From positions 1-11,346 of the forward strand of contig CALJPB010000138.1 of the NCBI GenBank assembly GCA_937981305.1: a DNA stretch of 11,346 bases. The letters run 5' to 3'. Made by a program: the position numbers and the translations under genes. Shown here piece by piece: positions 89 to 8,634 of the stretch; positions within the stretch are counted from its first letter, which is position 1, and each line of letters opens with the position of its first letter. A model generated the notes under the pieces. It was not told where the DNA came from. It worked only from the letters and a program-made list of their open reading frames with translations, and ran no database searches. Source of the stretch: an uncultured Selenomonas sp. (GTDB lineage: Bacteria; Bacillota; Negativicutes; Selenomonadales; Selenomonadaceae).

Positions 89-760
89 ATGGATTTTTTC
101 TCAGCCGTGAAGGGAAAACTCATCATCTCCTGTCAGGCACTGCCCGATGAGCCCCTGCACAGCCCGTTCATCATGGGACGCATGGCGCGTGCGGCAAGGG
201 AGGGCGGAGCAGTCGCCATCCGTGCGCAGAGCGTTGCGGACATCGAGGAGATCCGTGCCGCCGCACAGCTGCCCGTCATCGGTCTCATCAAACAGAACTA
301 CGCCGACTCCCCCATCTACATCACGCCGACCATGCGCGAAGTGGAGGCTCTGATCGGAACGGGCTGCGAGATGATCGCCCTCGACATGACCGACCGCGAG
401 CGTCCGCAGCAAACCGACGTGCGTGATCTTGTTGCACGCATCCACGAGGCACACCGCCTCGTTCTCGCCGACATCTCCACCTACGAGGAGGGGATGAAGG
501 CGCAGGAACTCGGCGTGGATGCCATCTCCACCACCCTCTCGGGTTACACCCCGTACAGCCCGCAGCTTGCGGGTCCCGACTACGAGCTCATGCGCCGCCT
601 CGCGCAGGACGCGTCCATCCCCGTCTTTGCCGAGGGTCGGATCAACACCCCCGAGGAACTCAAAGAGGCGATGCAGACGAGCGTATTCGGTGCGATCGTC
701 GGCTCCGCCATCACGCGTCCCCAGCTCATTGCGCGCCGCTTCACCGACGCGATCGCATAA
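89..760 (+). CDS. nanE: N-acetylmannosamine-6-phosphate 2-epimerase NanE
   Basis: A cytoplasmic enzyme that converts ManNAc-6-P to GlcNAc-6-P, the last step of the sialic acid branch before NagA/NagB. The product is 223 residues, a normal length for this single-domain TIM barrel. Family landmarks are visible: the N-terminal LIISCQALPDEPLHSP stretch (11-26), GLIKQNY around Lys68, the ALDMTDR strand (97-103), the ADIST strand (127-131), STTLSGYT (147-154) and FAEGRI with Glu182. Lys68 and Glu182 match the catalytic Lys/Glu pair described for Clostridium perfringens NanE. The start is set by GGAGG at 77-81, seven bases before the ATG. It is the first gene of the operon; nanA follows after a 63-base gap that contains a short GGAGC-TT-GCTCC hairpin (781-792). 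Confidence 0.95.
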   Translation: MDFFSAVKGKLIISCQALPDEPLHSPFIMGRMARAAREGGAVAIRAQSVADIEEIRAAAQLPVIGLIKQNYADSPIYITPTMREVEALIGTGCEMIALDMTDRERPQQTDVRDLVARIHEAHRLVLADISTYEEGMKAQELGVDAISTTLSGYTPYSPQLAGPDYELMRRLAQDASIPVFAEGRINTPEELKEAMQTSVFGAIVGSAITRPQLIARRFTDAIA

Positions 761-823
761 GGGAAGAATCGCTTATTTATGGAGCTTGCTCCCCACCCAT
801 CCATTTCTAAGGAGGAAATCATC

Positions 824-1699
824 ATGAGAGAACTCAAAGGCCTTTATTCCGCACTGCTCGGCGCGTTCCATGAGGACGGCACGATCAATGAGAAGGGACT
901 CCGCCAGATCATCCGCCACAACATCGACCACAACAAGATGGACGGACTCTACGTCGGCGGCAGCACGGGCGAGAACTTCATGCTCTCCACCGACGAGAAG
1001 AAGCGCATCTTCGAGATCGCCAAGGACGAGGCGAAGAACGACATCACCCTCATGGCGCAGGTCGGCTCCATCAACCTCAAGGAGTCCGTCGAGCTCGCGA
1101 AATTCGTCACAGACCTCGGCTACGATGCCATCAGCGCCGTCACGCCGTTCTACTACAAGTTCGGCTTCGACGAGGTGCGCCACTACTACGAGACCATCGT
1201 CGCCGACGTCGACACGCGCATGGTCATCTACTTCATCCCCTTCCTCACGGGCGTGAACATCAGCATAGACCAGTTCGCCAAGCTGTTCGAGAACAAGAAG
1301 ATCGTCGGTGTCAAGTTCACGCAGGGCGACTTCTACCTCCTGGAGCGTATGCGCAAGGCATTCCCCGACAAGCTCATCTTCGCAGGGTTCGACGAGATGC
1401 TTCTGCCCGCAACCGTCCTCGGCATCGACGGCGCAATCGGCTCGACCTACAACGTCAACGCCGCCCGCGCCCGTCAGATCTATGACCTCACGCGCGCGAA
1501 CAAGATCGCCGAGGCGCTCGAGGTGCAGCACGTCACGAACGACCTCATCACCGACATCCTCGACAACGGCCTCTACGGCACGATCAAACTCCTCCTGGAG
1601 GAGCAGGGCATCGAGGCGGGCTACTGCCGCGAACCGATGAAGGGATATACGCCGGAGATGCGTGCCCGCGCAAAGGAAATCTACAAAAAGTATTTCTGA
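824..1699 (+). CDS. nanA: N-acetylneuraminate lyase NanA
   Basis: A class I aldolase that cleaves open-chain Neu5Ac to ManNAc and pyruvate in the cytoplasm. The product is 291 residues, the usual length for the NAL/DHDPS family. It shows the carboxylate-binding GGSTGEN motif (45-51), the catalytic Tyr136 in VIYFIPFLTG, and the Schiff-base Lys164 in IVGVKFTQ. YFIPFLTG replaces the YNIPALSG seen in the E. coli enzyme, a normal variation among Firmicutes-type lyases. I chose the ATG at 824 because a strong AAGGAGG (809-815) precedes it by 8 bases. An in-frame ATG at 779 would add 15 residues without family support and has no ribosome binding site. The gene lies between nanE and the transporter and is probably co-transcribed with them. 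Confidence 0.95.
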   Translation: MRELKGLYSALLGAFHEDGTINEKGLRQIIRHNIDHNKMDGLYVGGSTGENFMLSTDEKKRIFEIAKDEAKNDITLMAQVGSINLKESVELAKFVTDLGYDAISAVTPFYYKFGFDEVRHYYETIVADVDTRMVIYFIPFLTGVNISIDQFAKLFENKKIVGVKFTQGDFYLLERMRKAFPDKLIFAGFDEMLLPATVLGIDGAIGSTYNVNAARARQIYDLTRANKIAEALEVQHVTNDLITDILDNGLYGTIKLLLEEQGIEAGYCREPMKGYTPEMRARAKEIYKKYF

Positions 1700-1729
1700 G
1701 CTCTATAATCATCTCAGGAGGAGATAACT

Positions 1730-3226
1730 ATGCATCAGGGATTTACCTGGATTGACACGGCAGTCCTCGTCATCTACCTGCTGGGCGTTCTGCTCGCAGG
1801 TCTCTACTACTCGAAAAAAGAAATGCAGGGCAAGGAGTTCTTCAAGGGCGACGGTACGATACCGTGGTACGTCACCTGCGTCTCCATCTTTGCCACACTG
1901 CTCAGCCCCATTTCCTTCCTCGCGATCCCGGGCAACTCGTACCACGGCTCATGGATCTTCTGGTGGGCGCAGCTCGGTATGCTGTTCGCGATCCCGCTGA
2001 CGATCCGCTACTTCCTGCCGATCTACAGCAAACTCGAGATCGACACCGCGTACCACTACCTCGAAAAGCGTTTCCAGAGCGGCAACCTCCGCATCCTCGG
2101 TGCGCTCATGTTCATCATCTACCAGCTCGGACGTATGTCCATCATCATGTACCTCCCGTCCATGGCGCTCGCCGAGGTCACGGGGCTCGATGTCAATATG
2201 CTGATCGTCGTCATGGGTGTCATCGCCATCATCTACTCCTACTCCGGCGGACTCAAGGCGGTTCTCTACACCGACTTCATCCAGGGCACAGTTCTCATCG
2301 TCGGCATCGCCCTCTCCCTCGTCGTCATGATCGGCAGCATCCACGGCGGATGGGGCACGGTCTGGGATACCCTCACCACGGGGCATAAGTTCATGCTCGA
2401 AAACGAAGTCTGGTTCAGCCCCGACATCGTCTCCTCCAGCGTCTTCATCATCTTCATCGGCGGCGGTCTTGGAACGTTCGCATCGTACATCTCCAGTCAG
2501 GACATTGTCCAGCGTTTCACCACAACCACGGACATGAAGCAGCTCAACAAAATGACGCTCGGCAACGGAGTTGTCTCCATCTTCGCCGCGACGGTCTTCT
2601 TCCTCGTCGGCACGGCACTCTTCGTCTTCTATCAGCAGAACCCCGACCTCCTCACGACGGACCGCCGCGACCTCGTGCTCGCAGCCTACATCACGTATGA
2701 GCTGCCCGCAGGTCTCACGGGTATCCTCCTCGCCGCCCTCTTTGCGGCGGCGCAGTCCACTCTCTCCACGGGCATCAACTCCGTTGCGACCAGCTGGGTT
2801 CTGGACATCCAGTCCGTCCTCAACCCCGCGATGGAGATGAAAAAGCAGACGCGCATCGCGCAGTTCATCTCTCTGGGCATCGGTATCCTCTCCATCGTCG
2901 TCGCCATCGTCATGGCGGGCAGCGACATCCGCTCGGCATACCAGTGGTTCAACAGCTTCATCGGACTCGCACTCGGGGCGTTGGCGGGGATGTTCGTCCT
3001 CGGCGCGTTCTGCCCGAAGGCAAACGCCAAGGGCGCACTCATGGGCTTCATCGTCGCGACGGCGGTTGTCCTCTACCTCAAGTATTTCGTTCCGTCCGTT
3101 TCCTTCTGGTCGTACACCCTCATCACCATCGTCATCTCCCTCGTCGTCGGCAACATCGTCAGCCGTCTCACCGAGCCGGACTACGAAGCGCCTGCGGGCA
3201 CGACGGTTCAGTCAACGAGGGGATAA
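1730..3226 (+). CDS. SSS-family sodium/sialic acid symporter
   Basis: An inner-membrane solute:sodium symporter (SSF family, LeuT fold) of 498 residues with about 13 hydrophobic segments and an extracellular N-terminus, like SiaT of Proteus mirabilis. The family signature runs from YSYSGGLKAVLYTDFIQG (about 169-186). The TM8 stretch AQSTLSTGINS (341-351) carries the Ser/Thr residues that form sodium sites in this family. Candidate substrate residues are Ser59, Ser62, Gln81 and Arg135. In SiaT the equivalent arginine salt-bridges the Neu5Ac carboxylate, so Arg135 supports a sialic acid substrate; this equivalence is from memory and needs an alignment. The position between nanA and nanQ supports the same substrate. 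The start follows AGGAGGAG at 1716-1723. Family is certain, substrate likely. Confidence 0.88.
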   Translation: MHQGFTWIDTAVLVIYLLGVLLAGLYYSKKEMQGKEFFKGDGTIPWYVTCVSIFATLLSPISFLAIPGNSYHGSWIFWWAQLGMLFAIPLTIRYFLPIYSKLEIDTAYHYLEKRFQSGNLRILGALMFIIYQLGRMSIIMYLPSMALAEVTGLDVNMLIVVMGVIAIIYSYSGGLKAVLYTDFIQGTVLIVGIALSLVVMIGSIHGGWGTVWDTLTTGHKFMLENEVWFSPDIVSSSVFIIFIGGGLGTFASYISSQDIVQRFTTTTDMKQLNKMTLGNGVVSIFAATVFFLVGTALFVFYQQNPDLLTTDRRDLVLAAYITYELPAGLTGILLAALFAAAQSTLSTGINSVATSWVLDIQSVLNPAMEMKKQTRIAQFISLGIGILSIVVAIVMAGSDIRSAYQWFNSFIGLALGALAGMFVLGAFCPKANAKGALMGFIVATAVVLYLKYFVPSVSFWSYTLITIVISLVVGNIVSRLTEPDYEAPAGTTVQSTRG

Positions 3227-3243
3227 AACATAGAAGTGCAGCG

Positions 3244-3290
3244 TGCGTGACATCTCAGTGAATCCTAGGGAAGCACTGATGTGTCACGCA
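3244..3290 (+). promoter_or_regulatory. Intercistronic imperfect hairpin in the nan operon
   Basis: The 89-base gap between the transporter and the anomerase gene contains two 17-base arms, 3244-3260 (TGCGTGACATCTCAGTG) and 3274-3290 (CACTGATGTGTCACGCA). They pair at 15 of 17 positions around a 13-base loop that itself contains CCTAGG. No T-run follows, so it does not look like a simple intrinsic terminator. It lies 15 bases before the AAGGAGG (3305-3311) of the next gene. It could be an RNA-processing or stabilising element that separates transporter and enzyme expression, a protein-binding palindrome, or a dispersed repeat. The pairing is direct observation; the role is not known. Confidence 0.6.
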
Positions 3291-3315
3291 TGAAACACAT
3301 ATCCAAGGAGGTTCT

Positions 3316-3768
3316 ATGATCTACGGCAGCATCTACCACGAAAAGACCTACGCATTCCTCCCGCCGCGCGTGCAGCAGGCGCTTGCCTTTGCCCGCACGC
3401 ACGACCTTGCCGCGCTCCCCAAGGGGCGCAACGACATCGACGGCGAGGATGTCTACGTCAACATCGCCCACTACACCACGGGCGAACGCAGCGAAAAGAT
3501 CTGGGAGGCACACCGCGCTTACATCGACATCCACATCCTCGCCGAGGGGACGGAGAAAATCGACGTGAGCCTCATCGAGCGGATGCAGACGCACCCGTAC
3601 GAGGAAGACAAGGACTACGTGCCCGCTGACGGCGCAGTCACCCAGACCACCATCATGCGGCCGGGCGACTTTCTCATCTGCTACCCCGAGGACGTACACC
3701 GCTCCGGGGTGAAGGTCGATGAGCCGGCCCCGCTCAAAAAAGGGATTTTCAAGGTTCGAGTGGAATAG
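3316..3768 (+). CDS. nanQ: YhcH/YjgK/YiaL family N-acetylneuraminate anomerase
   Basis: A small metal-binding, cupin-like cytoplasmic protein of 150 residues, the normal size for this family (DUF386, TIGR00022). E. coli YhcH (NanQ) is reported to speed anomer opening of Neu5Ac so that NanA receives the open-chain form. The conserved block WEAHRAYIDIHIL (63-75) and PEDVHRSG (124-131) are clear. Glu64, His66, His73 and His128 are candidate metal ligands. The start is set by AAGGAGG at 3305-3311. It sits between the transporter and the kinase within the sialic acid operon, which supports the anomerase role over a role with another sugar. The N-terminus is typical (MIYGSIYHEKTYAFLP). Confidence 0.88.
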   Translation: MIYGSIYHEKTYAFLPPRVQQALAFARTHDLAALPKGRNDIDGEDVYVNIAHYTTGERSEKIWEAHRAYIDIHILAEGTEKIDVSLIERMQTHPYEEDKDYVPADGAVTQTTIMRPGDFLICYPEDVHRSGVKVDEPAPLKKGIFKVRVE

Positions 3769-3792
3769 ACGACACAGAACGGAGGCGCATCC

Positions 3793-4686
3793 ATGTATAT
3801 CTGCATCGACATCGGCGGCACCGCCATCAAGTACGGCGTTGCAGACGCGTCGGGCGCGCTGCACACGCGCGGCTCCGTGCCAACCGAGGCGAAGGAGTAC
3901 GGCGGCACAGGCATTGTTCAAAAGGTCTTTGCCATCGTGCGTGAGGCGCAGCAGACCCACGGTGTGAAGGGCGTCGCCATCTCCACGGCGGGCATGGTCG
4001 ATCCGCAGGCGGGCTGCATCGTCTATGCGCTTGAGGATGCGATCCCCGACTACACGGGCACGGACTGGAAAGCACTCATGCACGATGCGTTCGGACTGCC
4101 CGCCTCCGTCGAGAACGATGTCAACTGCGCCGCGCTCGGCGAGCTGTGGCAGGGCGCGGGCAGGGGCTGCTCCTCCCTCTTTGCCATGACCGTCGGCACG
4201 AGCATCGGCGGCGCACTCATCGTCGATGGACGCATCGTCCACGGTGCGTCGGGGAGTGCGGGAGAAATCGCCTATATGCGCGTCCCCGGCGGACGTCTGC
4301 ACGAACGCTGCTCCGCGACTCGGCTCGTTGCTTCCGTCTGCCGCACCAAGGGTCTGCCCGCCGGCAGCATCGACGGCCACGCCGTGTTTGACCTTCTCAG
4401 GAAGGGCGACCCTGCCGCCGTGGAGGAGGTCACGGCACTCGTCAATGCCCTTGCCGACGCGATCACAAACGTCGTCTCGGTGGTCAGCCCCGAGTGCATC
4501 GTGCTCGGCGGCGGCATCATGGCACAGGAGGAGGCACTGCGCCCGCCGCTCGAGGAGGCGCTGCGTGACCGCCTCCCGCCCCTCATCTGCGCGGCGACCA
4601 AGATCACATTCGCCGCCACACAGAACGATGCGGGGATGCTCGGCGCACTCCGCCACTTTTTGCAGGAGTACGGAGATCTCGCGTAA
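3793..4686 (+). CDS. nanK: ROK-family N-acetylmannosamine kinase NanK
   Basis: A cytoplasmic sugar kinase that should phosphorylate ManNAc to ManNAc-6-P with ATP, linking NanA to NanE. The 297-residue product has the ROK phosphate-binding motif DIGGTAIKYG (6-15), VENDVNCAALGE (106-117) with the likely catalytic base Asp109, the second phosphate motif GTSIGGAL (135-142), GEIAYM (157-162) and the C-terminal VLGGGIM (237-243). The cysteine-rich zinc motif of many ROK proteins (CxCGxxGCxE) is absent: the region after Gly157 has only Cys173 and Cys183, so this belongs to the zinc-less subgroup. Substrate specificity is inferred from the operon. The stop is followed after 12 bases by a strong terminator, marking the end of the transcription unit. 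Confidence 0.88.
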   Translation: MYICIDIGGTAIKYGVADASGALHTRGSVPTEAKEYGGTGIVQKVFAIVREAQQTHGVKGVAISTAGMVDPQAGCIVYALEDAIPDYTGTDWKALMHDAFGLPASVENDVNCAALGELWQGAGRGCSSLFAMTVGTSIGGALIVDGRIVHGASGSAGEIAYMRVPGGRLHERCSATRLVASVCRTKGLPAGSIDGHAVFDLLRKGDPAAVEEVTALVNALADAITNVVSVVSPECIVLGGGIMAQEEALRPPLEEALRDRLPPLICAATKITFAATQNDAGMLGALRHFLQEYGDLA

Positions 4687-4698
4687 CGATCTGCACAC

Positions 4699-4730
4699 AA
4701 AACGCCGCCCGATGGACGGCGTTTTCTTTT
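4699..4730 (+). terminator. Intrinsic terminator of the nan operon
   Basis: A 9-bp perfect stem, AAAACGCCG / CGGCGTTTT, with a 9-base loop spans 4699-4725 and runs into a T-rich tail, TTTTCTTTT (4722-4730). It lies 12 bases after the nanK stop. The left-arm A-run could also allow weak termination from the opposite strand. Confidence 0.88.
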
Positions 4731-4750
4731 GGATCAAAATCTGCTATGAT
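4723..4750 (+). promoter_or_regulatory. Putative promoter of the RpiR-type regulator gene
   Basis: An extended -10 element, TG-C-TATGAT, lies at 4742-4750, about 28 bases before the regulator ATG. The -35 position falls in the T-rich terminator tail (around 4722-4728) and is weak. With the terminator just upstream, this suggests the regulator is transcribed separately from the nan operon. The -10 is clear; activity is inferred. Confidence 0.5.
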
Positions 4751-4777
4751 ACAGACAAGAACGGAAGAGGTGATCCC

Positions 4778-5620
4778 ATGAAGATACTTAGCCGGCTCGA
4801 CGATCCGCCGTTTCGCGTCTCCAAGGGCGACCGCAAGATCATCGACTGCATCCGCGCCCGCCTCACCGACATCCCGCGCATGACCATCTCCGAAATCGCT
4901 GCCGCAAGCGGCACGGGGGAGGCGACCTGCACGCGATTTGTCCGCAAGATGGGCTTCGCGGGGCTGGCCGACTTCAAGGCGGCGCTCGCCGGAGAGGGCG
5001 CGGAACTCGGCCGCTACATGGAGCGCGGGAACATCAAGAACAGTGAGACCGCACGCGAGACGGCGCACAAGCTCCTCTGTGCGAACATGATCGCCCTCGA
5101 AAAGACGCAGGACATCATCTGCAACGAGACCATTGACCGCTGCGCCGCCCTGCTCATTGCCGCCGATCGAATCGCGTTCATCGGCCTTGGGTACTCCGGC
5201 ATCATCGCGCAGGACTCCTATTTCAAATTCCTGCGTATCGGAATGCACTGCGTCGCACCGCGCGACAACCACACTATGCGGATGCTCGCCGCCATTATGG
5301 ATCCGAGCGACGTGATCTTTGCCATCTCCCATTCGGGCGAGACGGCGGAGATCCTGGAGACCGTCGCACTCGCACGGTCGCGCGGACTCAAGGTCATCTC
5401 CCTCACCGAGAACCACCCGTCCGCCCTGCGTGCGGCATCCGACGTGAGCCTGACCTATATCGCCGAGGAGACACCTCTTGAGACCGGCTCCATCGCCTCG
5501 AAGATCGTACAGTTTTTCCTCGTCGATCTCGTCTATACCGAGGTGCTCAAGAACCTCCCGCCGAGTGCCATGGAAAAGAAAATCCGCACGACCGAAGCCG
5601 TGCGGCGGCACAAACAATAG
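4778..5620 (+). CDS. RpiR/MurR-family transcriptional regulator, probable nan repressor
   Basis: A 280-residue DNA-binding regulator with the two domains of the RpiR family. The N-terminal helix-turn-helix domain covers about 1-77; its HTH is near 36-57 (ISEIAAASGTGEATCTRFVRKMGF region). The C-terminal SIS sugar-phosphate-binding domain covers about 120-258, with GLGYSG (136-141) and the phosphate-binding SHSGET (184-189). RpiR-type NanR proteins of some Vibrio and Firmicutes repress sialic acid genes and respond to ManNAc-6-P or GlcNAc-6-P, so with its location just after nanK it is the likely regulator of this operon; target and ligand are inferred. The frame is open far upstream into nanK, but the ATG at 4778 with GGAAGAGG (4763-4770) and the preceding terminator and promoter fix the start. 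Confidence 0.88.
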   Translation: MKILSRLDDPPFRVSKGDRKIIDCIRARLTDIPRMTISEIAAASGTGEATCTRFVRKMGFAGLADFKAALAGEGAELGRYMERGNIKNSETARETAHKLLCANMIALEKTQDIICNETIDRCAALLIAADRIAFIGLGYSGIIAQDSYFKFLRIGMHCVAPRDNHTMRMLAAIMDPSDVIFAISHSGETAEILETVALARSRGLKVISLTENHPSALRAASDVSLTYIAEETPLETGSIASKIVQFFLVDLVYTEVLKNLPPSAMEKKIRTTEAVRRHKQ

Positions 5621-5646: not shown

Positions 5647-6837
5647 TTACGGACGAAGACGCGACGCAGACGATGTCCCCTGCACATCTTTCACGTAGAC
5701 GCAGCGGCAGAGCAGGGCGGCGGCACCGGCGATCACCGCGCCGATGTAGCCGATGTGGGCGAGGTGGCCGTTCCCCGCCGCGAGCCCGCCGAGGTACGTT
5801 CCGCTGCCGATGCCGAGGTTGAAGATGCCCGAGTAGATCGCCGTCGCAACCGTCGATGCGTCGCGCGGAACCGTTGCGAGAACCTCCGCCTGGAACATCG
5901 TGTTGTAGAGGGTTGCGAGTACCCCGAGCAACATCGTGAGCACGATCATCGTGCCGACGGAGATGGATGCCGTCTGCCAGAGGAAGAGCATGGCCGCAAC
6001 CCCGACAAGACACCAGCGCAGCAGGAAAAAGCGACGCTTTCCATACATCCGAGAGAAAACGAGGCTCGCGAGGATGCCGCTGACCCCGAGCAGCATGAGT
6101 GCGACCGTGATCAGATCGGGCGAGAACGCCGCGACATTGTGCAGGAACGGCTCGATGTAGCTGTACATCGTGAAGTACGCCGTCGCAAAGAGTGCCGTCA
6201 TGATGTAAATGCACGCAAGCGCCGGCTGACGGATGAGCGACGGCAGTTCGCCGATGGTGAACCCCTCTCCCGGTGACCGTTTCGGCAGGAGAATCCCGAG
6301 ATAGACACACGCAATGACGGCGACCGCAGCGAGCAGCAGAAACGTCATGCGCCACCCCGCCGCCAGACCGATCACACGCCCGAGCGGCAGCCCGACAATC
6401 GTCGCGACCGAGCTGCCCGTCACGATCATGCCGAGTGCCATCGGGCGATGCCCGCGCGTTACGAGCCGCGTCGCAAGCGGTGCGGCAATCGACCAGAAAA
6501 TCGAGTGTGCGCAGGCGACGATGATGCGTGCGCCGAGCAGCACATCATAGCTCGTCGCGAGACCCGAGACCAGCTGTCCGAGACCAAAGAGCGCGACCAT
6601 CAGCAGTAGAAGCCGTTTCAGCTCCATGCGGCAGGTCAGCAGCATGAGCGGCAGCGAGAGCAGAGCAACCACCCACGCATAGATCGTGATCATCTGCCCC
6701 GTCGCCGCCTCCGTCATGGAGAACGACTCCGAGATATCGATGAGCAGCGCAATCGGTATGAACTCGGATGTGTTAAAGATAAATGCGGCAATCGTAATGC
6801 CGAGCAGCGCCATATATTGGCGCAATGGAATCTTCAT
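5647..6837 (-). CDS. sotB: SotB-like MFS sugar/drug efflux transporter
   Basis: An inner-membrane major facilitator protein of 396 residues with 12 predicted membrane segments, the same length as E. coli SotB (YdeA), an exporter of arabinose, IPTG and similar small sugars. Stretches I recognise from SotB are AAFIFNTSEFIPIALLIDIS (17-36), TIYAWVVALLSLPLMLL (51-67), AHSIFWSIAAPLATR (110-124), GLPLGRVIGLAAGWRMTF (149-166) and a C-terminal SGIFNLGIGSGTYLGG. The start is supported by AGGGGG (6843-6848 on the - strand) and a good upstream promoter. It converges on the regulator gene with only 26 bases between the stop codons and no clear terminator there. The natural substrate is unknown; export of a sugar or small drug is the family expectation. 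A functional link to the nan genes is not shown. Confidence 0.85.
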   Translation of the reverse strand: MKIPLRQYMALLGITIAAFIFNTSEFIPIALLIDISESFSMTEAATGQMITIYAWVVALLSLPLMLLTCRMELKRLLLLMVALFGLGQLVSGLATSYDVLLGARIIVACAHSIFWSIAAPLATRLVTRGHRPMALGMIVTGSSVATIVGLPLGRVIGLAAGWRMTFLLLAAVAVIACVYLGILLPKRSPGEGFTIGELPSLIRQPALACIYIMTALFATAYFTMYSYIEPFLHNVAAFSPDLITVALMLLGVSGILASLVFSRMYGKRRFFLLRWCLVGVAAMLFLWQTASISVGTMIVLTMLLGVLATLYNTMFQAEVLATVPRDASTVATAIYSGIFNLGIGSGTYLGGLAAGNGHLAHIGYIGAVIAGAAALLCRCVYVKDVQGTSSASRLRP

Positions 6838-6941: not shown

Positions 6942-7559
6942 TTATGCAGCGTCCTTCTCCTCGGCCAAGTCCACCTCGCGCAGCATCGACGCCTCCATCA
7001 GGTTCACGATGCGGTCGGGGAGCTTGTACTGGATACCGCCGCCCGTTCGTCCGAACCACGGCGCGATCTTCCCTTTCTGAACACCGTCGATGGGACGCTC
7101 AACACAGTAGACGTGAAAATCGCCCTCGTTCGTCGTGCTCGGCAGTGCCCGCTGCTCGAACGTCATGCCGTCGGGCGAGACATAGCGGCCCGTCGGCTTC
7201 CCGTAGCGTGTCAGCACATCGCCCGAGGGGAGCGTGACCGTCACAATCACGCCGACCGCGCCGTCGTTGCTCGGGTAGATCGGGCGGCCGTCGTCGGCGT
7301 AAAACCGCGCCTCACCCTTCTTGCCCGGGGTATAGGCGACACCCTGCTCCGCCGCCAGCTCCGCGATGAACGCATCCGTCGGCGGGGCGAAGTTGTAGTA
7401 CATCTGCCAGTAGCGCGGCTCGGTCTGTGCCTCCTGCGCCGCAGCGGCGGGCGTACCGATAGCAAGCGGTGCGTCCGCTGTCATGTGCGGCGTACCGAGG
7501 ACTGCGGCGAGGGCAAAGAGGGCGGCGGCAATCAGGCGCATGGGAGAGAGGGTCTGCAT
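6942..7559 (-). CDS. Secreted TNT-domain (NAD+ glycohydrolase-like) protein
   Basis: A 205-residue exported protein. Residues 1-41 form a signal peptide: hydrophobic core about 9-22, Ala-rich region 38-41 with likely cleavage near Ala41. The rest matches by eye the TNT domain (Pfam PF14021), named for the tuberculosis necrotizing toxin at the end of CpnT, which hydrolyses NAD+. Recognised blocks are YPSNDGAVG (95-103), LPSGDVLTRYGKPTGRYVSP (110-129), FEQRALP (134-140), FHVYCVERP (148-156), IAPWFGRTGGGIQYKLP (165-181) and a closing LREV (193-196). Arg118, His149 and Gln177 are candidate counterparts of CpnT Arg757, His792 and Gln822; spacing is similar, but this is from memory without an alignment. 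I chose the ATG at 7559 for its AAAGGAG 8 bases upstream; an ATG at 7631 lies before the promoter. No immunity gene is recognised next to it. Domain family likely, activity and target unknown. Confidence 0.78.
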   Translation of the reverse strand: MQTLSPMRLIAAALFALAAVLGTPHMTADAPLAIGTPAAAAQEAQTEPRYWQMYYNFAPPTDAFIAELAAEQGVAYTPGKKGEARFYADDGRPIYPSNDGAVGVIVTVTLPSGDVLTRYGKPTGRYVSPDGMTFEQRALPSTTNEGDFHVYCVERPIDGVQKGKIAPWFGRTGGGIQYKLPDRIVNLMEASMLREVDLAEEKDAA

Positions 7560-7602: not shown

Positions 7603-7631
7603 ATCATATAATGAAATACGAAAAAAGGCAA
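7603..7631 (-). promoter_or_regulatory. Promoter of the TNT-domain gene
   Basis: On the - strand TTGCCT (-35, 7626-7631), a 17-bp spacer and TATGAT (-10, 7603-7608) lie between the terminator of the lipoprotein gene and the TNT gene. This gives a leader of roughly 35 bases and indicates a separate transcription unit. Confidence 0.6.
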
Positions 7632-7633
7632 CG

Positions 7634-7657
7634 AAAAAAGAGCCGTATATGCGGCTC
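7634..7657 (-). terminator. Intrinsic terminator of the lipoprotein gene
   Basis: On the - strand a GAGCCG-CATATA-CGGCTC stem-loop (7640-7657) is followed by TTTTTT (7634-7639), starting 15 bases after the stop codon at 7673. Confidence 0.85.
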
Positions 7658-7672
7658 CTGTCGATGTCTACC

Positions 7673-8488
7673 TCAACGCGAACGCCTTGCCGCCTCCTCC
7701 TGCGCACTGCGCAGACAGCTCCCGAAGTAACGCGCGAGATTTTGCTCCAACGCAGCGACCTCCGTTTCGTTCGATGAAGAGCCGGGGTTGTCCGCCAGCG
7801 TCGCCGCCCAGTCGTTCGGACCCTTCAGCGTGAAGAACGCGACAAAGACCGCCCGCGTCCGATCCGTTTCGTTCGGCGGCAGATAGTAGAACGTGATCTT
7901 TCGCCCGTACAGCGCGGAGAGAACCGTGCCGTCCCCGTTTGGACGGTACAGCGCGTGGAGCTTCTTACAGATCGCCGCAAGATCCGCGCCGCGTGCGCCG
8001 TCCGTGACGAAAATAAAGTCCCCCTCGTCAAAGAGCGAGACCTCCCGCTCGAGGTGGTTGCGCTTCACCCCCGCATGGATCAGTGCCTCCGCCTCTGCGG
8101 TGGTCGCGGCGCGAAAGCCGTATTCCTCCGCCACACGCCCAATCGCCGCGTTCAGATGCGCGGCATAGCCCGTCGCGTACTGAAAGAACGCATTCGTGTC
8201 CCGTTCCGCACCGGGGCGCGGGAGCGTCGGGCGGCGGACGACCGCGTTGCAGGAAAACGTGAAATTATTCGCCGTATCGCGCAGGACGTAGATGCGCCGC
8301 TCGAACGGCTTTTCCTTTTCGATCTGCGTCTCCTCCCAAACGAGATGCGGCGTACAGGAGGAAAACTCCTCCTCCACCATCCCGATCACATCGTCCGGCG
8401 TATACGGATCACTGCTTTCTGTCGCCAGTGTCGAGGAACAGCCCGTGAGGAGGGCGCAGAGGAGGACGAGGATGCCCCATGGACGCAT
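7673..8488 (-). CDS. Putative lipoprotein of unknown function
   Basis: I do not recognise the family. The 271-residue product begins with a lipoprotein signal peptide: MRPWGILVLLCALLTGC, with the lipobox LTGC and lipidation Cys17, so it should be membrane-anchored outside the cytoplasm. The mature part is soluble and mixed alpha/beta, with no obvious repeats or further membrane segments. Features include a Ser/Pro-rich linker (18-30), a YATGYAAHLNAAIGRVAEEYGFRAATTAEAE helix region, a FIFVTDGARGADLAAIC stretch, FYYLPPNETDRTRAVFVAF and a charged Arg/Ala-rich C-terminus. The ATG at 8488 is preferred because it gives a clean signal peptide; an in-frame start at 8554 would place a charged tail before it and overlap the tRNA terminator. 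The ribosome site (AGGTG, 7 bases upstream) is modest. Only about 33 bases separate the ATG from the tRNA terminator and no good promoter is visible there. Confidence 0.72.
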   Translation of the reverse strand: MRPWGILVLLCALLTGCSSTLATESSDPYTPDDVIGMVEEEFSSCTPHLVWEETQIEKEKPFERRIYVLRDTANNFTFSCNAVVRRPTLPRPGAERDTNAFFQYATGYAAHLNAAIGRVAEEYGFRAATTAEAEALIHAGVKRNHLEREVSLFDEGDFIFVTDGARGADLAAICKKLHALYRPNGDGTVLSALYGRKITFYYLPPNETDRTRAVFVAFFTLKGPNDWAATLADNPGSSSNETEVAALEQNLARYFGSCLRSAQEEAARRSR

Positions 8489-8521
8489 TGCTGAACACCT
8501 GCCTTCATCGCATTTCCTTAC

Positions 8522-8550
8522 AAAAAAGAGCCGCCCTCTCGGACGGCTCT
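8522..8550 (-). terminator. Intrinsic terminator of tRNA-Gly
   Basis: On the - strand AGAGCCG (8544-8550), a 10-base loop, CGGCTCT (8527-8533) and a TTTTTT tail (8522-8527) follow the tRNA CCA end by 10 bases. The stem GAGCCG/CGGCTC is the same as in the terminator at 7634-7657. Confidence 0.88.
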
Positions 8551-8560
8551 GCACTTTCTA

Positions 8561-8634
8561 TGGAGCGGGCGATGGGAGTCGAACCCACCTCTAAAGCTTG
8601 GGAAGCTTTCATTCTACCGATGAACTACGCCCGC
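8561..8634 (-). tRNA. tRNA-Gly (anticodon CCC)
   Basis: A 74-base cloverleaf with encoded CCA. The acceptor stem is GCGGGCG/CGCCCGC with discriminator T. The D arm is GTTC-ATCGGTA-GAAT. The anticodon stem is AAAGC/GCTTT with loop TTCCCAA, placing CCC at 34-36 (+ strand 8600-8602). The T arm is GTGGG-TTCGACT-CCCAT. It closely resembles E. coli glyU (also CCC), and decodes GGG. A near-consensus promoter and a terminator flank it. Confidence 0.95.

Follow-up and report, generated by a model that had tools for sequence, protein, structure and literature searches.

A predicted periplasmic TNT-family NADase of oral Selenomonas, related to phage-borne toxins and possibly used for NAD salvage

Introduction

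In bacteria, TNT enzymes are known as toxins, each paired with an immunity partner; in fungi they are secreted, and their purpose there is unclear. TelB exemplifies the LXG-TNT toxins (PMC5555719, in part), and secreted TNT-like enzymes have been noted in competition among Firmicutes (PMC6398120, in part). Both TelB and the TNT of M. tuberculosis (CpnT) have large delivery domains and a dedicated immunity partner (PMC7955114; PMC5555719, in part). The fungal surface NADases of A. fumigatus (AfNADase) and N. crassa form homodimers and possess a distinct thumb, disulfides, and glycans; the fungal TNT NADases are exported and have no immunity-factor homologue, for which their authors suggest export as one reason (PMC7955114). 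A separate precedent for the use of external NAD is the NadN/e(P4) route of Haemophilus, a periplasmic breakdown of external NAD in bacteria that are unable to make NAD (PMC10694654 and PMC4081464, both in part).

Here we analyze a TNT gene in an 11,346-nucleotide stretch of DNA (the window) from an uncultured Selenomonas sp. (GenBank contig CALJPB010000138.1). Its product shares the family and the catalytic set of TelB and CpnT, but a large delivery domain was not found in it, nor an immunity partner near its gene. The enzyme family is known; the architecture and the context are unusual. We found no open-licence paper on both tuberculosis necrotizing toxin and Selenomonas, and no title on exported stand-alone bacterial TNT enzymes in the open-licence literature; TNT and NAD are absent from the main text of the 2017 MuF toxin paper. 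A toxin core behind a signal peptide, with no immunity gene nearby and in a genome apparently incapable of making NAD, presents a testable case of passage from toxicity to nutrition. The window TNT may be a former toxin that now harvests NAD, and if this is true, oral Selenomonas can draw vitamin B3 from the NAD of the host or of neighbors.

A signal-peptide TNT protein that is not a bare domain

The TNT gene lies at 6942..7559 on the minus strand and encodes a 205-aa protein, recognized from its ORF, Pfam match, and homologues as a signal-peptide TNT protein and predicted NAD(P)+ glycohydrolase. The plus-strand reading of 6942-7559 was discarded as not being the gene. The original prediction, which our analysis supports in part, had described a secreted stand-alone TNT protein and proposed a search with the profile PF14021. 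That search bears out the family assignment: PF14021 covers residues 109-196 (codons at 6972..7235, minus strand) over all 88 model positions (1-88) with 94.8 bits and an E value of 4.4e-27, against a cut-off of 27 bits. The motifs quoted in the prediction (NDG, RYG, GRYVSP, RALP, APWFG..GGG.QY, and LREV) are all present in the 205-aa product. The predicted structure of the domain has the TNT fold, and its nearest folds are the fungal surface NADases, in the VIA fold comparison of model residues 84-205 against the families on the VIA list. There were 93 homologues at E ≤ 1e-3, a set far beyond chance, and 88 of them have a precomputed TNT domain. This search was restricted to 0.55-1.75 times the query length, so the absence of long relatives cannot be read from it; long relatives came from other searches. 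NCBIfam gave no name for the window protein.

The protein begins with MQTLSPMR, which contains one Lys or Arg and no Asp or Glu, and continues from residue 9 with the hydrophobic stretch LIAAALFALAAV, whose mean Kyte-Doolittle hydropathy is 2.81. Judged by hydropathy, the N terminus looks like a Sec signal peptide, in agreement with the original prediction. The signal-peptide-like region spans codons 1-42 (7434..7559, minus strand), and confidence in the predicted structure is low for residues 1-43. Pfam recognizes only TNT in the window protein, preceded by about 40 signal-like residues and an extension of about 60 residues, with no N-terminal delivery domain of the MuF, LXG, Rhs, or CDI type; nor does the protein contain an autotransporter or other outer-membrane export part. 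The term stand-alone is therefore apt in that a delivery domain is absent, but the TNT domain is not bare: codons 53-103 (7251..7403, minus strand) encode a conserved extension, APPTDxFIxxLA..GKxGxxRFYxDDGxPIYPxNDGAVG, that is shared with phage MuF-TNT toxins.

The prediction had further placed the gene in a Firmicute from which the enzyme would be exported to act on a host, on rivals, or on extracellular NAD+. The source organism is a Negativicute, a member of a class with an outer membrane; with nothing but a Sec signal, the enzyme would stay in the periplasm. That the protein is an NAD(P)+ glycohydrolase and is probably exported, the latter judged from hydropathy, is a well-supported prediction.

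Conservation of the active site

The Arg, aromatic, Arg, Gln catalytic set of the TNT family is found by alignment in the window protein as R118 (7206..7208), Y126 (7182..7184), R137 (7149..7151), and Q177 (7029..7031), all encoded on the minus strand. These residues align with AfNADase R129, F137, R148, and Q194, and with R757, Y765, R780, and Q822 of M. tuberculosis TNT (PMC8285248, in part), and R118, Y126, and Q177 are predicted to be catalytic. The original prediction had singled out R118, H149, and Q177. The first and last match R757 and Q822 of the M. tuberculosis protein in our alignment, and the active-site set is conserved. Of the 76 aligned rows P0002-P0076, 75 retain R118 and Q177 (one gap) and 74 retain R137 and H149 (two gaps). 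Across 72 toxin-type rows (P0118-P0189), R118, R137, and Q177 are invariant (72/72) and position 126 is always Phe (72/72); the two Arg and the Gln are also kept in all 14 rows of TNT-autotransporters from another genus.

By alignment, H149 (7113..7115, minus strand) is conserved within the genus but varies across the family, its position being Ser in 71 of 72 toxin-type rows and in 14 of 14 autotransporter rows. It is probably the counterpart of TelB H661, paired by motif position rather than by alignment, and a change of H661 was used for attenuating the TelB toxin (PMC5555719, in part).

The Asp of the DRXG motif, which forms a salt bridge, is common but not universal in the family as sampled, and the window protein has Thr117 in its place, as do all 75 gap-free genus-like rows and some MuF and signal-peptide TNTs. 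Loss of this Asp destabilized M. tuberculosis TNT (PMC6398120, in part). A MuF toxin (G379) with an adjoining immunity-like gene also reads TRYG, and for this reason we do not take Thr117 as loss of function.

The extension is shared with phage MuF toxins

A profile of the extension (residues 53-103) scored 53.9-112.7 bits in 12 signal-peptide TNTs, 102.4-108.7 bits in five short database proteins, and 36.3-85.2 bits in five Negativicutes MuF-TNT proteins; many of the signal-peptide and short rows were used to build the profile, and the MuF, G082, and G208 rows were outside it. It gave at most 10.1 bits or no match in autotransporter, LXG-, Rhs-, and CDI-type proteins, in the Thermoanaerobacterium and Clostridium proteins, in the MuF-like Agathobaculum protein, and in the fungal row. 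The window protein accordingly differs from the fungal NADases in its N-terminal extension, and also in the periplasmic location expected for it. Five Negativicutes proteins have both MuF and TNT over the Pfam cut-off (one has the MuF end only), and the MuF match of the Agathobaculum protein is below the cut-off.

A tree of 53 TNT domains places the autotransporters in one clade (100/100) inside an LXG/Rhs-type group and shows the signal-peptide and MuF forms interleaved, with MuF G379 joining P0081 and P0083 at 99/91. The phage MuF toxins of Negativicutes (e.g., G379 and G322) thus have the same extension and TNT core as the window protein. They differ in possessing a MuF head-protein domain rather than a signal peptide, and in having an immunity-like gene behind the toxin, whereas none was found near the window gene. 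To judge from the alignments and the tree, the window TNT domain and the toxin domains at the C termini of phage MuF polymorphic toxins probably have a recent common ancestor. Seventeen of the 46 inner branches are open, so we infer the direction of descent rather than read it from the tree.

An immunity-like gene family behind toxin-type TNT genes

To the question of an immunity partner, which the original prediction had not found in the window, the toxin-type loci provided a reference. An immunity-like ORF follows the toxin in all ten toxin-type TNT loci compared (five Negativicutes MuF, one MuF-like Agathobaculum, one Rhs, one CDI-like, one LXG-like, and one Clostridium), starting between −40 and +18 bp from the end of the toxin gene. 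Toxin-type loci outside the ten include L011, L032, L034, L035, L037, L055, L089, and L105. Eight of the ORFs encode 77-93 aa and two encode 160 and 199 aa. Examples directly behind TNT toxin genes are L103:5142-5399, L104:4411-4668, L029:10343-10588, L074:7932-8189, and L095:8861-9115. The ten align as one family, with pairwise tblastn support for some members, and an alignment of eight of them plus two more has invariant M1, L6, Y20, E49, E62, and A65. None of five members tried matched Pfam over the cut-off, and the best match in a PDB search with the alignment, at E 0.051, was not significant. Of 29 relatives obtained by a profile search, three have a species name (Dialister, Clostridium, and Veillonella).

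The same family occurs behind the signal-peptide TNTs of two other Negativicutes genera, G082 and G208 (best tblastn E 2e-6 and 1e-6). These proteins resemble the window protein in their signal-like start, extension, and TNT core, but differ in having the immunity-like gene directly behind, which rules out that all exported TNTs have lost immunity. Among frames of at least 35 aa, the profile matched nothing at E ≤ 1, whether in the window, in 25 genus loci totaling 464,417 bases, in locus L106, or in the autotransporter-locus DNA examined. That no immunity gene is obvious, as the original prediction had noted, thus holds up under test for these neighborhoods. PADLOC returned no matches among four proteins (the TNT protein, one immunity candidate, a Sir2-like neighbor, and a TNT-autotransporter). 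The immunity-like family could help to separate toxin-type TNTs from exported TNTs that have no immunity gene.

Distribution, selection, and gene neighborhood in the genus

The genus (oral Selenomonas/Centipeda) was drawn round the nearest genome, G001, and is represented by genomes of 14 species, so the counts below come from relatives of the window's genome. An intact TNT gene is present in nine of the 14 genomes; named relatives are Centipeda periodontii, Selenomonas infelix, S. massiliensis, and oral Selenomonas strains. G004 has TNT pieces only, and G003, G010, G011, and G014 gave no match. A second copy in G012 (L020:3511-4576) contains only residues 45-205 and lies beside a broken MFS gene, approximately 14 kb from the intact pair. 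The reading frame is open from start to stop in the window and in the nine genomes, and dN/dS values of 0.03-0.23 (45 pairs from 10 sequences, residues 50-205) indicate purifying selection. In one scan of putative viral contigs, L106, on a 114,551-base contig, was the sole match.

Directly after the TNT gene, and in the same direction, is an MFS transporter gene (5647..6837, minus strand) with its own promoter-like sequence, as judged by eye. An MFS gene follows TNT in nine of 12 genus copies, one of them broken (the window, G001, G005, G007, G008, both G012 copies, G013, and L106), and does not in G002, G006, and G009. Because MFS is missing in three copies and has its own promoter-like sequence, a TNT-MFS operon is unproven. 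Ahead of TNT are promoter-like hexamers, TTGCCT-17-TATGAT (7603..7631, minus strand), which match the consensus and have similar sequences ahead of several genus copies, and a terminator-like hairpin (7638..7659, minus strand) separates TNT from a predicted lipoprotein gene (LLTGC motif; 7673-8554, minus strand). The lipoprotein has no Pfam match over the cut-off and its family is unassigned; its gene adjoins TNT in the window and in several relatives. A tRNA-Gly (ccc) gene follows at 8561-8634 (minus strand), and Rfam gave tRNA only at E ≤ 0.5, with no NAD-responsive or other regulatory RNA in the window. Other immediate neighbors vary among the copies: mnmG with the lipoprotein gene, a Sir2-like gene with a macrodomain gene, an AlwI-type restriction system, or a DUF805 gene.

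Neither of two neighbors was retained as a candidate immunity partner. The lipoprotein gene is not beside TNT in G002, G006, and G009; the MFS protein is a membrane transporter, is missing from the same three, and has its own promoter-like sequence. In G002 and G009, TNT is adjoined by a Sir2-like gene (no Pfam match) and a macrodomain gene (L014:10509-12364 and the L019:7804-9560 region), the latter matching the NCBIfam protein-ADP-ribose hydrolase with 340.8 bits. The Sir2-like/macrodomain pair is also present, without TNT, in G003.

NAD metabolism of TNT-bearing genomes

The original prediction had drawn attention to sialic acid scavenging, and the window does encode sialic acid utilization at 89-5620 on the plus strand (nanE, nanA, an SSS-type transporter, YhcH, a ROK kinase, and an RpiR-like regulator). 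We consider NAD metabolism the more telling context. NadA was absent from all 14 genus genomes and was detected in 12 of 14 control genomes. No QPRTase exceeded the cut-off in any of the 14 genus genomes, with one weak match in G011, and PnuC was absent from all 14. Nicotinate phosphoribosyltransferase (NAPRTase) is present in 14/14, and the two that were tested, at 653.6 and 656.9, exceed the equivalog cut-off of 469. By NadA, QPRTase, and NAPRTase, with the tryptophan route outside the search, the genus therefore appears to have no de novo NAD synthesis and retains a salvage enzyme, and with PnuC also missing, it should depend on nicotinate or nicotinamide.

An e(P4)-like acid phosphatase gene was found in eight of 14 genomes: in seven of the nine with intact TNT, where it lies 1.6-18.5 kb from TNT, and in one of the five others, where it is split over two frames. 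The association with TNT has a Fisher p of 0.010 (one-sided) or 0.021 (two-sided), ignoring kinship; G009 and G012 have TNT but no e(P4)-like gene. The protein scores 196.6 against the e(P4) model cut-off of 216.05, and is thus below it. Its start is signal-like by eye, and its PDB neighbors are acid phosphatase 2i33 and then lipoprotein E/outer membrane protein P4. An isochorismatase-family gene with nicotinamidase-like positions (29.4 bits against a nicotinamidase cut-off of 174) is present in 13/14 genomes, including genomes without TNT. It is 2.5-26.3 kb from TNT in all nine TNT genomes and 1.7 kb away in L106, and in G001 the nicotinamidase-like, e(P4)-like, MFS, and TNT genes all fall within 4 kb. 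It is also near the MFS gene in G010 and G011, which have no TNT, so shared synteny may explain part of its linkage with TNT.

Across the class, 32 genomes have a TNT match. None of the 16 with an exported TNT (nine of the window genus, G082, G208, and five with autotransporters) has NadA, and the corresponding counts are 6/6 for long, Rhs, or contact-type TNTs and 0/4 for the MuF type; six genomes with partial or broken TNTs (two with NadA and four without) were set aside. A NadA match is missing in 288 of 380 genomes of the class and the exported set represents about four lineages, so the link between exported TNT and NadA absence fits salvage but is not significant.

Possible roles of the exported TNT enzyme

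Our best reading is that the window protein acts in the periplasm as an NADase, that it is kin to phage-borne toxins, and that it probably serves NAD salvage. Sec would export the enzyme to the periplasm of these diderm oral Selenomonas/Centipeda species, where it would split external NAD(P)+ into nicotinamide and ADP-ribose (phosphate). Nicotinamide could then be converted to nicotinate, for which the nicotinamidase-like gene in the region is a candidate, and passed to NAPRTase, and the e(P4)-like phosphatase may process nucleotide fragments. Such a pathway would recall the Haemophilus route in pairing external NAD breakdown with an e(P4)-like gene, but it would differ in its first enzyme and in its product, nicotinamide and not NMN/NR, and it would operate in a genus without PnuC. 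Once exported, the enzyme would not meet the NAD of the producing cell, and the lack of an immunity-like gene near TNT would then be accounted for. The family, the catalytic residues, the signal-like start, the missing de novo NAD genes, and the lack of an immunity match nearby all support this account, and from these sequence features we infer the activity, the periplasmic location, and the salvage role. We regard it as an even call whether a Sec-exported periplasmic TNT glycohydrolase of this kind splits external NAD(P)+ for salvage. Counted against it are Thr117 in place of the DRXG Asp, the nicotinamidase-like and e(P4)-like scores below their model cut-offs, and the G082 and G208 proteins, whose immunity-like genes fit toxins better. 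The five genus genomes without intact TNT also have no NadA, so TNT is not needed for life without NadA.

Among a host, rivals, and NAD salvage, which the original prediction had left side by side, salvage has the most support, although the salvage role is itself about evenly poised. The signal-peptide TNTs that keep an immunity-like gene are the main reason why action as a toxin stays open. The enzyme would then be aimed at neighboring bacteria or host cells and leave through vesicles, lysis, or an unrecognized secretion route, the producer being safe through export before folding or through a diverged, distant immunity gene. The closest domain relatives do belong to phage MuF, LXG, Rhs, and CDI-like proteins whose genes are followed by an immunity-like gene, and TNT-type NADases are proven antibacterial in the case of TelB (PMC5555719, in part). 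The window protein, however, has no delivery domain, Sec would take it no farther than the periplasm of a diderm cell, neither the window nor 464 kb of genus DNA yields a match to the immunity family, and the e(P4)-like association in a niacin-dependent genus points elsewhere, so we consider a toxin rather unlikely, at perhaps half the weight we give to salvage. More improbable still is an extracellular role in which the enzyme consumes NAD+ released by the host and so takes away a danger signal or a host-enzyme substrate, with neither direct toxicity nor nutrition as its purpose, as has been speculated for fungal surface NADases. It would suit the oral habitat of the named genus members, the fold similarity to fungal surface NADases, whose authors propose an advantage in contact with host or competitors (PMC7955114), and the autotransporter TNT of another genus of the family, which should sit at the surface, but the window protein has no autotransporter or other part for export across the outer membrane.

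The pieces in G004, the G012 copy that lacks its first 44 residues beside a broken MFS gene, and the Thr in place of the DRXG Asp throughout the genus could suggest that the gene is what remains of a toxin cassette, inactive or in decay. The low dN/dS in 45 pairs, the open frames in the window and nine genomes, and the retained catalytic residues argue the other way, as does the TRYG of the G379 MuF toxin with its adjacent immunity-like gene, and decay seems very improbable. Returning to salvage, we tentatively suggest a fuller history, to which we give roughly one chance in three: a phage-type toxin NADase may have taken on a signal peptide in place of its delivery domain, shed its immunity gene, and come to serve with the e(P4)-like phosphatase in periplasmic NAD-to-nicotinamide salvage in niacin-dependent oral Selenomonas, with a related genus separately having a different TNT toxin domain on an autotransporter.

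TNT-autotransporters of another genus

Another Selenomonadaceae genus has proteins with a signal-like start in which TNT and an autotransporter barrel are fused. Such genes were recognized by Pfam at three loci, L076:6834-8243, L077:7523-8932, and L078:2135-3436 (G122, G142, and G145), and are likely, by likeness, at L096:723-2147 and L097:2890-4320 (likely G260 and G283). There are 14 TNT-autotransporter proteins in all (P0096-P0109), each a predicted surface NADase. Like the window protein, they are predicted to be exported and have no immunity match in the DNA examined; unlike it, they are fused to a barrel and do not contain the extension. At one of the five loci, some of which are partial, a secreted-type 5'-nucleotidase gene of the UshA/NadN group (L077:8954-10483; 140.3 bits with the NadN model against a cut-off of 436) begins 21 bases behind the TNT-autotransporter gene.
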